Positions 7,853 to 63,987 of a stretch of DNA of 64,000 bases are shown in pieces. The position numbers and the translations under genes are program-made. This DNA is from Polaromonas vacuolata. GTDB taxonomy: Bacteria; Pseudomonadota; Gammaproteobacteria; Burkholderiales; Burkholderiaceae_C. The notes under the pieces are model-generated. The model made no database searches, was not told the origin of the DNA, and worked only from the letters and a program-made list of their open reading frames with translations. The stretch covers positions 2,537,501 to 2,601,500 of the forward strand of contig NZ_CP051461.1 of assembly GCF_012584515.1 (NCBI RefSeq). The letters run 5' to 3'. The first letter of the stretch is position 1; each line of letters opens with the position of its first letter.

Positions 7853-7963
7853 TCATTTAGGCACATCATGCCCAGCCCAGCCAGGATTGATATATGACGG
7901 CGGCTTGGACTTTGGCTTCGGCTTCGGCTTCGGCTTCAACACAGGCTGCGCACGCTCGGTCAT
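7853..7963 (-). CDS. Possible 36-residue KP-repeat micro-ORF
   Basis: Inside the 630-bp gap between hbdH and the lipoprotein operon, the minus strand holds a 36-codon frame from ATG 7963 to TGA 7853. It encodes MTERAQPVL, then four KP dipeptides (KPKPKPKPKS), then a tail ending SYINPGWAGHDVPK. The frame stays open about 17 codons further upstream. The segment is more G+C-rich than its A+T-rich surroundings, as coding sequence would be. There is no good ribosome binding site and I recognise no family. It could be a real small protein or the C-terminal relic of a lost gene. Flanking parts of the gap (7646-7852 and 7964-8234) show no genes. Confidence 0.3.
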   Translation of the reverse strand: MTERAQPVLKPKPKPKPKSKPPSYINPGWAGHDVPK

Positions 7964-58817: not shown

Positions 58818-59333
58818 ATGAAAAAAGTTATTAACAGCACGTTGGGTCTTTTGACTGCAACCATTTTTTTAAACACGCCGTTACAAGCCGCCACAGTTGG
58901 CAACAGCTTTAACGTATTGGTCAATCTGACCTCTACCTGCATCATTGACTCCACTACCAACACGCTAAATTTTGGAACCTACACAGCATTTGGCAGTGCT
59001 TCTACCTCAACGCCAACAGCCGCCATCAGCTTTAAGTGCACACAAGGCTTTGTCCCTTCTTCCGTAGTGCTTGACACGACTGCTCCACTTGCAATTGCGG
59101 CAGCAGCCGGATTAACAACTACTGGCACGGGCGTGATTGCAGGCTTGCGTTACACATTGACAATGGCAGGAGTTGTGAGCACTACGGGTTCTGCCGCCAC
59201 TACAACTGCAGGTTCGGGCGCTGACATTAAGTCATACACGATATCTGGAAACATGGTGTCTGGTCAGGCGGGCCTTAGCTCCACAGCAACTGTAGCCGCC
59301 ACGCAAACTCGCACACTGACTCTGACTTTTTGA
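58818..59333 (+). CDS. Spore coat U domain pilin (CsuA/B-like major subunit)
   Basis: A 171-residue secreted pilin with a signal peptide (about 1-24, ending LQAA). The SCPU domain is recognisable from FNVLVNLTSTCIIDSTTNTLNFGTY split by the first cysteine, FKCTQG with the second, then YTLTMAG and SGQAGLSSTATV. It ends in an alternating hydrophobic strand (TRTLTLTF), as in subunits assembled by donor-strand exchange. It is rich in Ala, Thr and Ser. It is the first gene of a Csu-type chaperone-usher operon for an archaic pilus used in surface attachment and biofilm formation in Acinetobacter. Confidence 0.88.
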   Translation: MKKVINSTLGLLTATIFLNTPLQAATVGNSFNVLVNLTSTCIIDSTTNTLNFGTYTAFGSASTSTPTAAISFKCTQGFVPSSVVLDTTAPLAIAAAAGLTTTGTGVIAGLRYTLTMAGVVSTTGSAATTTAGSGADIKSYTISGNMVSGQAGLSSTATVAATQTRTLTLTF

Positions 59334-59371
59334 AGTCTTAATACCTGACAAAGATAGAAACGTCGATCACT

Positions 59372-59782
59372 ATGCGCCCCAAGCTTTTGCTAGGTTTCGC
59401 TTTAACGCTGGCGACTGCTAGCTGCTTGGCTGGCAGTGCGAGTAATCTATTAGAGGTCCAGGTCACGCTAAACAACACTTGCATCAGCAGCAGCGCGTTA
59501 TTCGTTGGCAGTGCAGAAGTTAATGTTCGCTGCTCGGGCAATGTTTTTGTCAATATTGCGCAAATTGGGAACCTTGAGCAGGGAGATAACAGTCCCTCTA
59601 GAAGTGACCAATTACTAGCAACTTCAGGTACAGAAGCAACTAGCCGTGCGACTTACCTAGCGCAAACACAAACGCAAGCGAGTAGTTTTTTAGGACAACT
59701 CGGCACGCAGAGAGCACTTCACATCGCTAACTCTGCCAGAGGCGAATTTGCTCCCCCGATTGAAATGATGGTAACTTTTTGA
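59372..59782 (+). CDS. Divergent small SCPU-like pilus subunit
   Basis: A 136-residue secreted protein (signal about 1-20, ending SCLAGS). It keeps the pattern LLEVQVTLNNTCISSSA, a second cysteine in VNVRCSGN and a short terminal beta strand (EMMVTF). It lacks most of the middle of a normal SCPU pilin, so it may be a minor subunit such as CsuA or CsuB in Acinetobacter. Its TGA overlaps the chaperone ATG (TGATG). Assignment rests on operon position and the terminal pattern. Confidence 0.7.
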   Translation: MRPKLLLGFALTLATASCLAGSASNLLEVQVTLNNTCISSSALFVGSAEVNVRCSGNVFVNIAQIGNLEQGDNSPSRSDQLLATSGTEATSRATYLAQTQTQASSFLGQLGTQRALHIANSARGEFAPPIEMMVTF

Positions 59783-60519
59783 TGTCAAATTTTTTGCAGC
59801 ATGTGCGCCTACATCTTTTAAATTGCGCGGTTTTACTAACACTGCTCATGTCTTGGACAGCGTCTAACGCGGGCGTTTTTTCTGTCTCTCCTGTGCGGCT
59901 ATACATGCTGCCAAAAGACCGCGCTATTGCGATAACGCTGACTAACGAAGGCGATACTGCGGTGGCCTTGCAGGCCGACATCAATACTTGGACTCAAAAG
60001 CCCGATGGCACCGACGAGCTGGTACTCACGGAAGATTTAATTTTATCGCCGCCCATCATTAAGCTGCTACCTAAGGCGCGCCAAGTGGTGAGACTTGCCC
60101 GGCTAAATCCGGCAGACGCTAGCCGACAACTGACTTACCGCTTAATCATTCGCGAAGTACCAGAAGCTTTGCCTAGCAACGGTATTCAAGTGCCCTTAGT
60201 GCTGGCTTTTAGCCTGCCGGTTTTTATCACGCCACCCATTGCGAAATACCAAATGGCCTGCAGTACCGTCAGTGTTAAAAGTTCAGTTTTGGATGTACTT
60301 TGCAGCAACACCGGAACGGCTTACACCCAAATACGTGAAGCGGTATTGCTGCGCGGCGAGCAATCCTTAGCCAAGTTTGAAGGCGGCAGTTATGTGTTGC
60401 CGGGCTCTAGCAAGAGTTTTGCGCTTAAAAGTGAAAAATCTTTTTCAGCAGGCCCAGCTGAACTAGTCGTTACGTTCGACGACGGTAAAAAGTTGACCAC
60501 GAATGTCACGTTGCCGTGA
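59782..60519 (+). CDS. Pilus periplasmic chaperone (CsuC-like)
   Basis: A 245-residue PapD-like chaperone. After a signal peptide (ending SNAG), two immunoglobulin-like domains follow: FSVSPVRLYMLPKDRAIAITLTNEGD in domain 1, the subunit-binding strand region ILSPPIIKLLPKARQVVRLAR, and domain 2 ending SAGPAELVVTFDDG. It holds pilin subunits in the periplasm and passes them to the usher. The ATG at 59782 shares a base with the previous stop, so I prefer it to the TTG one codon earlier. Confidence 0.9.
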   Translation: MSNFLQHVRLHLLNCAVLLTLLMSWTASNAGVFSVSPVRLYMLPKDRAIAITLTNEGDTAVALQADINTWTQKPDGTDELVLTEDLILSPPIIKLLPKARQVVRLARLNPADASRQLTYRLIIREVPEALPSNGIQVPLVLAFSLPVFITPPIAKYQMACSTVSVKSSVLDVLCSNTGTAYTQIREAVLLRGEQSLAKFEGGSYVLPGSSKSFALKSEKSFSAGPAELVVTFDDGKKLTTNVTLP

Positions 60520-60528
60520 TCGTTTCAG

Positions 60529-60702
60529 ATGTCAAAAATAACTACCGTACTCCTAACAATAGCGACTGTGTTGGCGTGTGCAGTAACACAGCCCATGCCC
60601 AACTGGCTAGTTTTTAGGGTCAAGAAAACAGTCCTGCGTGACGCTGATGAGCATCTAAGTTTTGCGCAATATTCAACTCACCATCACTTTGATTTTTACT
60701 GA
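60529..60702 (+). CDS. Possible 57-residue secreted small protein between chaperone and usher
   Basis: An ATG at 60529, 9 bp after the chaperone stop, opens a 57-codon frame whose TGA (60700-60702) shares its last base with the usher ATG. This TGATG overlap is the same as at the chaperone start. The product begins MSKITTVLLTIATVLACAV, like a signal peptide or weak lipobox (VLAC), followed by a basic, then His-rich end (HHHFDFY). No ribosome binding site is obvious and I recognise no family. It may be a real small envelope protein or only a translation-coupling leader. Confidence 0.4.
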   Translation: MSKITTVLLTIATVLACAVTQPMPNWLVFRVKKTVLRDADEHLSFAQYSTHHHFDFY

Positions 60703-63079
60703 TGCACGGTTTTTTTGCTGCGTTGGCAATTATTTGCTGCGCTCTGTCTGCGCGAGCCCAAAGCACACCACCCCTTAGTGTTGCGCCAGAGGACGACCAG
60801 ACCAAGGACAACCTCATGCCACTGGACGTATTGATCAACAACACCAAAGGCGGCGTCTGGACGCTGCTAGAGCGCAACGCCAAGCTCTACGCCCCACAAG
60901 AGGCTTTTGAGGAGTGGCGCCTGATTCACGCGGCTAACCCGCAAGGCATAGATTACAAAGGGCAGAAGTGGTTTGCCCTGTCCGACATTCCCGGGTTTGA
61001 AGCACGGCTTAACTATGCAGAGCAATCGGTCAATTTGGTTTTTTCACCCACCGCTTTCAACGCCACTCGCCTGACACAAGAAGTCGCGTCACGCCCCCCC
61101 ATCACCGAATCAATACCGGCCTTGTTTGCCAACTACGACCTTAACTACTCCACCGCTCGCAGCAAAAACTTCGGCAGCGCCGCAGTGACCCGAGACCTTG
61201 GCGCATTAACTGAATTGGGCGCCTCAGGGCAATGGGGCTTGTTAACGAGTAGCTATGTAGCTCGCAACCTGGTGTCGCAAGACCCGGCACTCAGCGCATC
61301 ATGGCGCCGCCTTGAAACGACTTACACGCGTAATTTTCTTGACAAAACCAGTACCCTGCGCCTGGGTGACAGCGCCACGCGCGCGGGCATTTCGGGCCGC
61401 TCGGTTTACTTTGGCGGTGTGCAGTTCAGTCGTAATTTTTTCTTGCAACCGGGCTTTATCACTCAGCCAGTTCCTATCGTCTCAGGTCTGTCGGCCGGCT
61501 CCAGTACGATGGAGCTGTATATAAATAATGCGCTTCGTCAAACGTCGCAAGTACCAGCCGGGCCGTTCAGCATTGACAATTTTCCGTCCCTGACCGGCAG
61601 CGGCGAAGCCAGAGTCGTGATACGCGATATTTTGGGCCGCGAGACCGTCATCACCCAGTCCTTTTTCAGCCATGCCAATTTGCTTGAAGAAAAGCTAAAC
61701 GACTGGAGTTTTGAGCTCGGCGCACTGCGTCAAAATCTAGGCACAAACAATGCCGATTACGGCCCTAAATTTATCTCCGGCCTGTGGCGCAGAGGCTTAA
61801 CTAAAAGCCTTACCGTCGAAGGCCAAGGCGAGTGGTCTGCGGCGCTGCAGCGTACCGGCCTAGGCGCCACTTACACGCTACCCCTGCAAATGCTGGGACA
61901 AACCGCCGTGTCACTAAGTCGCAGCAACTTAGCAGGCAGCGGATACAACTGGCTAGTAAGCGCCGAGCGCAGTAGCTTGCGACATAATTTTTCGGCCAGT
62001 GCCCAAAGTGCATCGCGCGGTTACCGGCAACTCGGTTTAGACACCGCAACGTCTTTGCCGCGTCTACAGACCAGTACCAGCTATAGCTATAACAGTGAGG
62101 AGCTGGGATCGCTAGGCGTAGGCTATACCGGTTTTTCCAACTATGACCTAGGCAAGCTCAACACCGTCAACCTGAGCTACAGCGTGCGCATTGGTCAGCG
62201 CAGCTCACTGACGCTGACAGCGAGCAAACTCAGTGGCATTTCATCCGGTTACTCAGTCGGTGCAGCCTTGTTATTACCGTTTGACAACAAGATCGCAATC
62301 TCTTCAGGCGTGAGCAGCCGTAGTGGCGCGACCGAGAGTTATGTCAACGCCAGCCGGGCTTTAAGTGACGAAACCGGCTGGGGCTGGAGAGCCGCGCTAA
62401 GCAAGCGAGCCAGTGGTGCGTACAGCGAAGGCGGTGCTCATTACCAAGGCGCAAAAGGACAGTTTTCGGCCGATCTGAGTGGCGACCAAAACCAGCAAAA
62501 TATGCGTTTAGGTCTAACCGGAGGGGCGGTAATCGCAGATGGGAAATTTTTTATTTCGCGCCGAGTACAAGACAGTTTTGCCATCGTCGAGGTTCCGGGT
62601 TACGCCAATGTAGGCGTGGGTTTTCAGGGCAGTTCGCTGACCCGAACTGACGCCAACGGCGTGGCGCTACTGCCCCGCCTGCTGCCTTTTCAGCGCAACA
62701 GCGTAAGACTCGACCCAAGCGAGCTACCAATTAGCGCCGAGCTCGATTCAATCGAGCAAGAAGCCGTTCCAGCGCAGCGCAGCGCAGCGCAGTCAAGATT
62801 CGCTTTCCCGTACGCGCAGGTCGCGGCGCTTTGATTCGTATCGTGCTGGATGACGGCGAGCCAGCGCCGGCTAGCGCAGAAATTGAGTTGATTGGCGACA
62901 GCAAAGAATTTTTTGTGGCGCGGCGCGGTGAGGCATTCATCACCGGCCTGCAGACGACTAATCGCTTGCGGCTGAAGTGGAACGAGACCAGTTGCACGTT
63001 TGACGTTGTGCTGCCCGCCGGCAGTCTTGATGACATTCCCCGGCTTGGTCCCTTAGTATGTAGCGGAGTAAAACGATGA
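60702..63079 (+). pseudogene. Pilus outer-membrane usher (CsuD-like), split by frameshift at a 5-bp repeat
   Basis: The usher is the outer-membrane pore that assembles and exports the pilus. The main frame (60702-62834, 710 residues) has a signal peptide, an N-terminal periplasmic domain, the beta-barrel/plug region (e.g. TLRLGDSATRAGISGRSVYFGG) and ends early after PYAQVAAL. The next frame (up to 63079) continues the family C-terminal domain: VKIRFPVRAGRGALIRIVL, then FITGLQTTNRLRLKW and SCTFDVVLP. The switch falls on four copies of AGCGC at 62771-62790. With three copies, one continuous protein of about 790 residues results, the expected usher length. It may be a phase-off state, a mutation or a sequencing error. 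The end overlaps the tip gene (ATGA). Confidence 0.85.
62771..62790 (+). repeat. Pentanucleotide tandem repeat (AGCGC)x4 in the usher gene
   Basis: Four perfect AGCGC units, followed by a partial AG. The unit length is not a multiple of three, so each gain or loss by strand slippage shifts the frame. Codon arithmetic shows that three units (or six) join the two usher parts in frame, while four or five do not. Confidence 0.95.
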
Positions 63080-63987
63080 TTGCTTTTAATACCCTGCGTC
63101 TTGCCTTAGCAGCATTGCTGTGCACCTTCGCATTGCAAGCGCAGGCAGCGATTACTTGCACGTTAACGCCTACTTCGGTCAACATAAATTACGTCAACGG
63201 TCAAACCAGCAATGCCAATACAAGTGGCTCCATCACGATAAATTGCACACGGCTATCAACGGATGTGAACAGTACCAGTTATTTTGTCAGCATTGATTAC
63301 GGAAGCCGCACAAAAAATCCCCGGCAAGTCTTTCGTACCGGTGGAGGCACAGGTGCTTCCGACCAATTAAATATCAGTATTTATCAAAGTGGCAGTACGA
63401 CTAATTGGGCTAACCAAAACAATAACATGGTCAGCGGAACCTTAAATTTTTTCACATCGACCAGCGCAAGCGTGACACTGACCTATGACTTTAGGGTGCC
63501 GTCTGGGTTGACCGGTAACACAGCAGGAATTTTCGACGAGATATTTATCACCAGTTTGCAGTTCACCAATAACGGCGCCATTCAGGCAAGCGCTGCGTTT
63601 ACAACTACCGTGAGCATCACAGCCATGTGCTTCGTAGGCCAAGTAGCCAGTGGAAACACCGCACCAGGTGCAATTTCGCCCTCAAACATGACACTGAACT
63701 ACACCTCCTTTGCAACTGCTGCGCAATCCACGACCATGACATACACCGTCGACTGCACCAAAACCACGCCTTACAGCATGGACTTATCACCCAGCAGCGG
63801 TGTGCTGTTGGGCTTGGCTTATACGGTGCAGTTTGACAACGGTTCGGGGACTAAAACTGGACTGACTGGATCAGGGTTTGCCCAGCCCTACACCGTCACA
63901 GCGGCTATAGCCGCCGGCCAAGCCGGCTTGTGTACGACGACCGCTTGTAGCGCGACGCAGGCCACGACGATTACCGTGACCTACTGA
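63076..63987 (+). CDS. Two-domain SCPU adhesin, probable pilus tip (CsuE-like)
   Basis: A 303-residue secreted protein with a signal peptide (ending LQAQA) and two SCPU domains. The first (about 25-180) begins ITCTLTPTSVNINYVNG. The second (about 190-303) begins AMCFVGQVASGNTAPGAIS and ends with the donor-strand-like TTITVTY. Two-domain subunits at the end of Csu operons form the pilus tip, whose first domain binds hydrophobic surfaces in Acinetobacter CsuE. Its ATG overlaps the usher stop. The gene is complete and ends 13 bp before the window edge. Confidence 0.87.
   Translation: MIAFNTLRLALAALLCTFALQAQAAITCTLTPTSVNINYVNGQTSNANTSGSITINCTRLSTDVNSTSYFVSIDYGSRTKNPRQVFRTGGGTGASDQLNISIYQSGSTTNWANQNNNMVSGTLNFFTSTSASVTLTYDFRVPSGLTGNTAGIFDEIFITSLQFTNNGAIQASAAFTTTVSITAMCFVGQVASGNTAPGAISPSNMTLNYTSFATAAQSTTMTYTVDCTKTTPYSMDLSPSSGVLLGLAYTVQFDNGSGTKTGLTGSGFAQPYTVTAAIAAGQAGLCTTTACSATQATTITVTY

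Follow-up and report, generated by a model that had tools for sequence, protein, structure and literature searches.

A pilus usher gene of Polaromonas vacuolata probably inactivated by a recent 5-nt tandem expansion

Introduction

Simple repeats control, or are suspected to control, the hif and aef chaperone-usher pili of Haemophilus (PMC9820224, PMC3309571). The repeats described in these sources lie in promoters, whereas the tract analysed here lies within the coding sequence of a Polaromonas usher gene. A likeness in the repeat itself is found in hsdM of Haemophilus influenzae, whose coding sequence contains a pentanucleotide tract with a maximum of four units. The rate at which this (GACGA)4 tract drops one unit, from 4 to 3, was reported to resemble that of much longer tetranucleotide tracts, and the tract truncates the open reading frame in strain Rd (PMC2651432). 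Switching and strain variation are reported for hsdM, whereas the Polaromonas tract is one allele in one genome and belongs to a pilus usher. A split usher has been described in H. parasuis D74, where fimD falls into two parts and the authors suggest a possible frameshift; unlike the Polaromonas case, their account of the split names no repeat tract there (PMC6211672). Our literature search yielded no clear case of a repeat-switched usher in the sources it covered.

A frameshift in csu occurs in Acinetobacter ATCC 17978. Archaic Csu pili, described in Acinetobacter and in Burkholderia thailandensis (csuFABCDE), resemble the Polaromonas operon in that genes for small subunits, chaperone, usher and tip adjoin one another (PMC12124856). 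In B. thailandensis, csu expression is described as heterogeneous via a 208.6-kb duplication (PMC12124856). The Polaromonas operon differs in that its Csu membership is weak by Pfam.

Results

The pilus operon

The genome assembles into one contig of 3,837,686 bases, of which the window, a 64-kb stretch of Polaromonas vacuolata DNA, covers base 2,537,501-2,601,500. The window contains an operon (58818-63987) in which a pair of small subunit-like genes precedes a PapD-like chaperone, an usher and a tip-like gene. Its features are as follows:

58818..59333, plus strand: pilus subunit gene, 171 aa, with weak SCPU (spore coat U) likeness (PF05229, E 0.001, 19.9 bits, cut-off 22.4)
59372..59782, plus strand: second small subunit-like gene, 136 aa (open reading frame; weak tblastn matches in relatives)
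59779..60519, plus strand: periplasmic pilus chaperone, PapD family (PF00345, E 2.6e-14)
60702..62834, plus strand: usher, first frame, 710 aa, without PapC_C (open reading frame; Pfam PF00577, E 1.1e-39)
62770..62792, plus strand: perfect pentanucleotide run, four AGCGC units (62771-62790) with flanking bases, at the site of the frame change
62792..63079, plus strand: usher C-terminal part, second frame, 95 aa (PapC_C; Pfam PF13953, E 2.9e-11)
63076..63987, plus strand: tip-adhesin-like gene, 303 aa (open reading frame; ATGA overlap with the natural end of the usher)

A PapD-like chaperone (PF00345) adjoining a PF00577 usher identifies the locus as a chaperone-usher operon. The chaperone is conserved at 61-74% identity in all eight related operons. 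A search of the whole genome returned this one usher match and no second usher; the genome also contains three matches to gas-vesicle genes.

The original prediction called the usher Csu-type, an assignment that Pfam supports weakly. The SCPU domain (PF05229) falls under the cut-off in the first subunit and in the L032 subunit, exceeds it in the tip proteins of two relatives (L035 and L037), and gives no Pfam match in the window's 136-aa and 303-aa proteins. The 303-aa tip-like protein shares 64% identity over 289 residues with the SCPU-containing tip protein of L037.

The 136-aa subunit has no Pfam match over the cut-off, and weak tblastn matches to it lie upstream of the chaperone in seven of eight related operons. 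It is in frame and, over the aligned part, 39-50 residues shorter than its counterparts in four of those seven, where the aligned span is 147-182 residues. Two tip-like matches follow the usher in three of eight related loci (L033, L034 and L037); the window has one. The shorter second subunit (and the single tip-like match) could fit an older decay. No further frame breaks were seen in the operon, and the genes neighbouring the usher are open.

The frame change in the usher

The 710-aa usher product has PF00577 as its sole Pfam match and shares 42-72% identity with its nearest relatives across most of its length. Its frame reaches a stop 13 codons beyond the AGCGC tract. The C-terminal part starts with VKIRFPVRAG at 62792, in another phase ((62792-60702) mod 3 = 2), and stays open from there as far as its stop at 63079. 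Over this part, 5 and 9 stops occur in the two remaining frames. PF13953, which a complete usher carries in frame with the barrel, is found here in the second frame only. The original prediction, which placed a change from phase 0 to phase 2 on four AGCGC units and a conserved C-terminal domain behind it, is borne out on both counts.

When P0002, a full-length database relative, is aligned to FimD, the break falls at FimD chain residue ~735 (counted by hand), which we take to be near the CTD1/CTD2 boundary. Pilus biogenesis is described as requiring both CTD1 and CTD2 of FimD (PMC3650583), and a role for CTD2 in driving release from the N-terminal domain has been suggested (PMC3960871). Because of this described necessity, pili assembly by the operon has probably been lost in the sequenced strain.

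The junction in relatives

Loci for comparison came from 61 genomes, of which 27 had a match, and from 87 genomes of the genus, of which 40 did; both counts of matches include the genome under study. A scan of named genomes gave eight usher loci, seven of them in Polaromonas records and one in a 'Burkholderiales bacterium'. We compared 51 relative loci at the junction and left out 11 in which the C-terminal part had no match. The remaining 40 comprised 32 distinct loci after removal of eight duplicates. Seven duplicates were confirmed by an identical 500-base core, and the eighth (L036/L004) was taken as such from its coordinates and the length of its contig, the tested core lying outside L004. 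The distinct loci include 21 usher matches of at least 43% identity and 11 distant ushers at 28-33%, and two genomes contribute two loci each.

The conserved blocks on either side of the junction are 18 nt apart, with the frame kept, in 32 of 32 distinct loci (with an extrapolation of a few codons for matches that ended early), compared with 23 nt in the window. This agrees with the earlier claim that the usher carries one 5-bp unit too many. The prediction had also considered that relatives might naturally end at the 710-residue form; the aligned relatives instead run through the site. The junction peptide VPAQRSAVK is common to P. jejuensis (L035) and P0002. The longest period-5 run at the junction measures 7-11 nt in relatives versus 23 nt in the window. 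None of the 32 distinct loci, all from other species, carries the AGCGC tract or a 5-nt excess, and a tract kept with varying unit number, as in a contingency locus, is likewise found in none of them. Because the 18-nt spacing is universal among these loci and the tract is absent from all, the 5-nt excess is, if the assembly is right, a real lineage- or strain-specific expansion and not a conserved contingency locus.

Comparison with protein databases

We scored 7,994 candidate proteins that shared most words with the usher and considered the best 120 of 671 matches. PF00577 and PF13953 occur together in 113 of these 120, as given in a precomputed column. Those without PF13953 are the window's own protein, P0003, P0059 (550 aa) and four proteins of 927-958 aa. 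With the window's own entry set aside, the closest among the matches listed is P0002, a full-length protein of 786 aa with 79% identity. The own entry (P0001) is the only match listed above 79% identity; its cluster has four member sequences, within which sister alleles may hide.

Several candidate parallels were rejected. P0003 (711 aa) appeared to be a relative ending at the same place, but its frame continues through the junction to a stop beyond it, and the entry is labelled as partial. We also found 25 matches to short C-terminal proteins that might have represented repeated usher splits. These were taken as mostly contig-edge pieces because 22 lie on contigs of at most 4.6 kb; two come without contig data, and the window's own 82-aa ORF is the sole one on a long contig. 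Finally, the usher of Polaromonas sp. P2-4 (L039:6001-8361; L039/G081, CP087965) is interrupted by several frame changes, all of them away from the junction. The P2-4 genome scores 83% completeness and 8% contamination and is likely an indel-rich poor assembly, and its usher was therefore not accepted as a parallel.

The AGCGC tract

The AGCGC run is perfect over 23 nt (4.6 units) and is the sole period-5 array among 18 TRF rows for the 64-kb window. It shares with contingency loci a tandem tract within the gene, a unit that is not a multiple of 3, and a position on the frame change. We compared it with a sample made up of the window and 20 stretches of the same genome (454,500 bases, ~12% of the genome). 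Period-5 runs of 15 nt or longer occur three times in this sample, and the usher tract is the only one of at least 20 nt. In fifth-order Markov simulations of equal length (n=20), period-5 runs of 15 nt or longer averaged 0.55 per simulation and none reached 20 nt. When the usher sequence preceding the tract was randomised synonymously, 0 of 2000 cases produced a period-5 run of at least 15 nt. A tract of this kind is thus unusual in the usher gene and mildly favours a special origin.

Runs of the same motif, each of ~3 units, occur at two further sites in the genome (L080 and L064). Both sit in long open frames (859 and 360 codons, counted stop to stop), the latter presumably a queA-like gene, which indicates that such short tracts arise in ordinary coding sequence. 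Among the three copies, that in the usher alone is out of frame. Runs of at least four units at periods 4, 5, 7, 8 and 10 number two in the sampled 12%, the usher tract included.

Other repeats were recorded in the same sample. A TTTTACC heptanucleotide run of 5.7 units (L060:17991-18030, genome base ~2,727,991) is the longest listed at periods 4, 5, 7 and 8. It lies within a 113-base gap between two ORFs that we take, from their sequence, to be gcvT-like and gcvH-like, and is a candidate promoter-spacing repeat. An octanucleotide, GCTTATGG, is present in 3.75 units between two minus-strand open frames (L055:13627-13656). Within the window, a CGGCTT hexanucleotide forms 6.2 imperfect units (7901-7937) and is overlapped by no ORF of at least 80 aa.

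Constraint on the downstream part

We calculated pN/pS for the C part of the usher against six relatives (L032-L037) with 70-72% usher identity and obtained 0.18, 0.19, 0.18, 0.18, 0.25 and 0.17. The part before the tract gave 0.26-0.29 against the same six. Intact relatives compared with each other gave C-part values of 0.22 (L035-L036), 0.12 (L035-L037) and 0.30 (L035-L038). In comparison with the more distant L038, the C part is slightly less constrained in the window (0.37) than in L035. The C part comprises 95 codons with synonymous sites near saturation, so that pN/pS says little about timing and allows no more than the statement that the break is young compared with the divergence of the species. 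The downstream part still looks constrained, and because of this, together with the lack of any other frame break seen in the operon, the usher break is probably recent.

Discussion

We established the frame change, the lineage-specific 5-nt excess and the intact state of the relatives, along with a downstream part that still looks constrained and a genome search that gave no second usher. The usher of the sole chaperone-usher pilus found in this genome has, in our judgement, probably been inactivated by a recent tandem expansion of 5 nt. The lineage would have acquired a short perfect AGCGC tract, to which slipped-strand mispairing would then have added one unit; slippage is the simplest cause because a whole unit has changed in a short tandem tract. 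The resulting shift near the CTD1/CTD2 boundary would keep the N-terminal, barrel and plug parts and remove the conserved C-terminal domain, and this loss would probably leave pili unassembled in the sequenced strain. We infer both the first origin of the tract and the recency of the expansion, which possibly arose in culture. Slippage could in principle reverse, and the allele may thus be a rarely reverting one rather than an evolved switch.

The original prediction proposed such a switch. In a phase-variable usher, AGCGC slippage at a high rate would move the gene in and out of frame, and the sequenced clone would have been caught in the OFF state. The position of the frame change exactly on the tract, which agrees with this proposal, was upheld; no relative carries the tract, and no support was found beyond the tract itself. 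The unit length of 5, not a multiple of 3, and a 23-nt run well beyond chance are also consistent with switching, as are the open state of the other operon genes and the apparent constraint on the usher C part. The prediction's own doubt that four units are too short is weakened by hsdM of H. influenzae, whose coding (GACGA)4 is reported to lose a unit, from 4 to 3, at a high rate (PMC2651432). Set against these points are the absence of the tract from 32 of 32 relatives, the single allele in a single genome, and the scarcity of runs of at least four units in the sampled 12%, where the usher tract is one of only two, and we regard a phase-variable usher as unlikely. It is improbable, too, that a young contingency locus has formed from a chance repeat just before the usher C-terminal domain in this Antarctic gas-vacuolate bacterium, acting on the usher and not on a promoter.

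An assembly or consensus error, in which the extra AGCGC unit is absent from the organism, is also a doubtful explanation. The assembly consists of one contig and scores 100% for completeness and 1.43% for contamination (the P2-4 scores being 83% and 8%). A 23-nt run is short relative to any read, and a change of a whole 5-nt unit within it is not typical of homopolymer error. We consider it very improbable that the split usher still works, by ribosomal frame change or by re-initiation at TTG 62831 to give a separate C-terminal piece. The stop TGA does overlap this possible start (62831-62834), and the 82-aa ORF that begins there has its own protein database entry (P0121), but the overlap falls in sequence that relatives code in frame. 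By eye, the junction has no known slippery motif and the 82-aa piece has no signal peptide, so that the piece could hardly reach the periplasm.

If the usher were a switch after all, it would show how a contingency locus emerges from ordinary coding sequence in a cold-adapted, free-living bacterium, with the usher itself as the site of phase variation. If the preferred reading of a plain knockout by tandem expansion is right, the sequenced strain is probably without its only detected chaperone-usher pilus, which matters when this strain is used to represent the genus.
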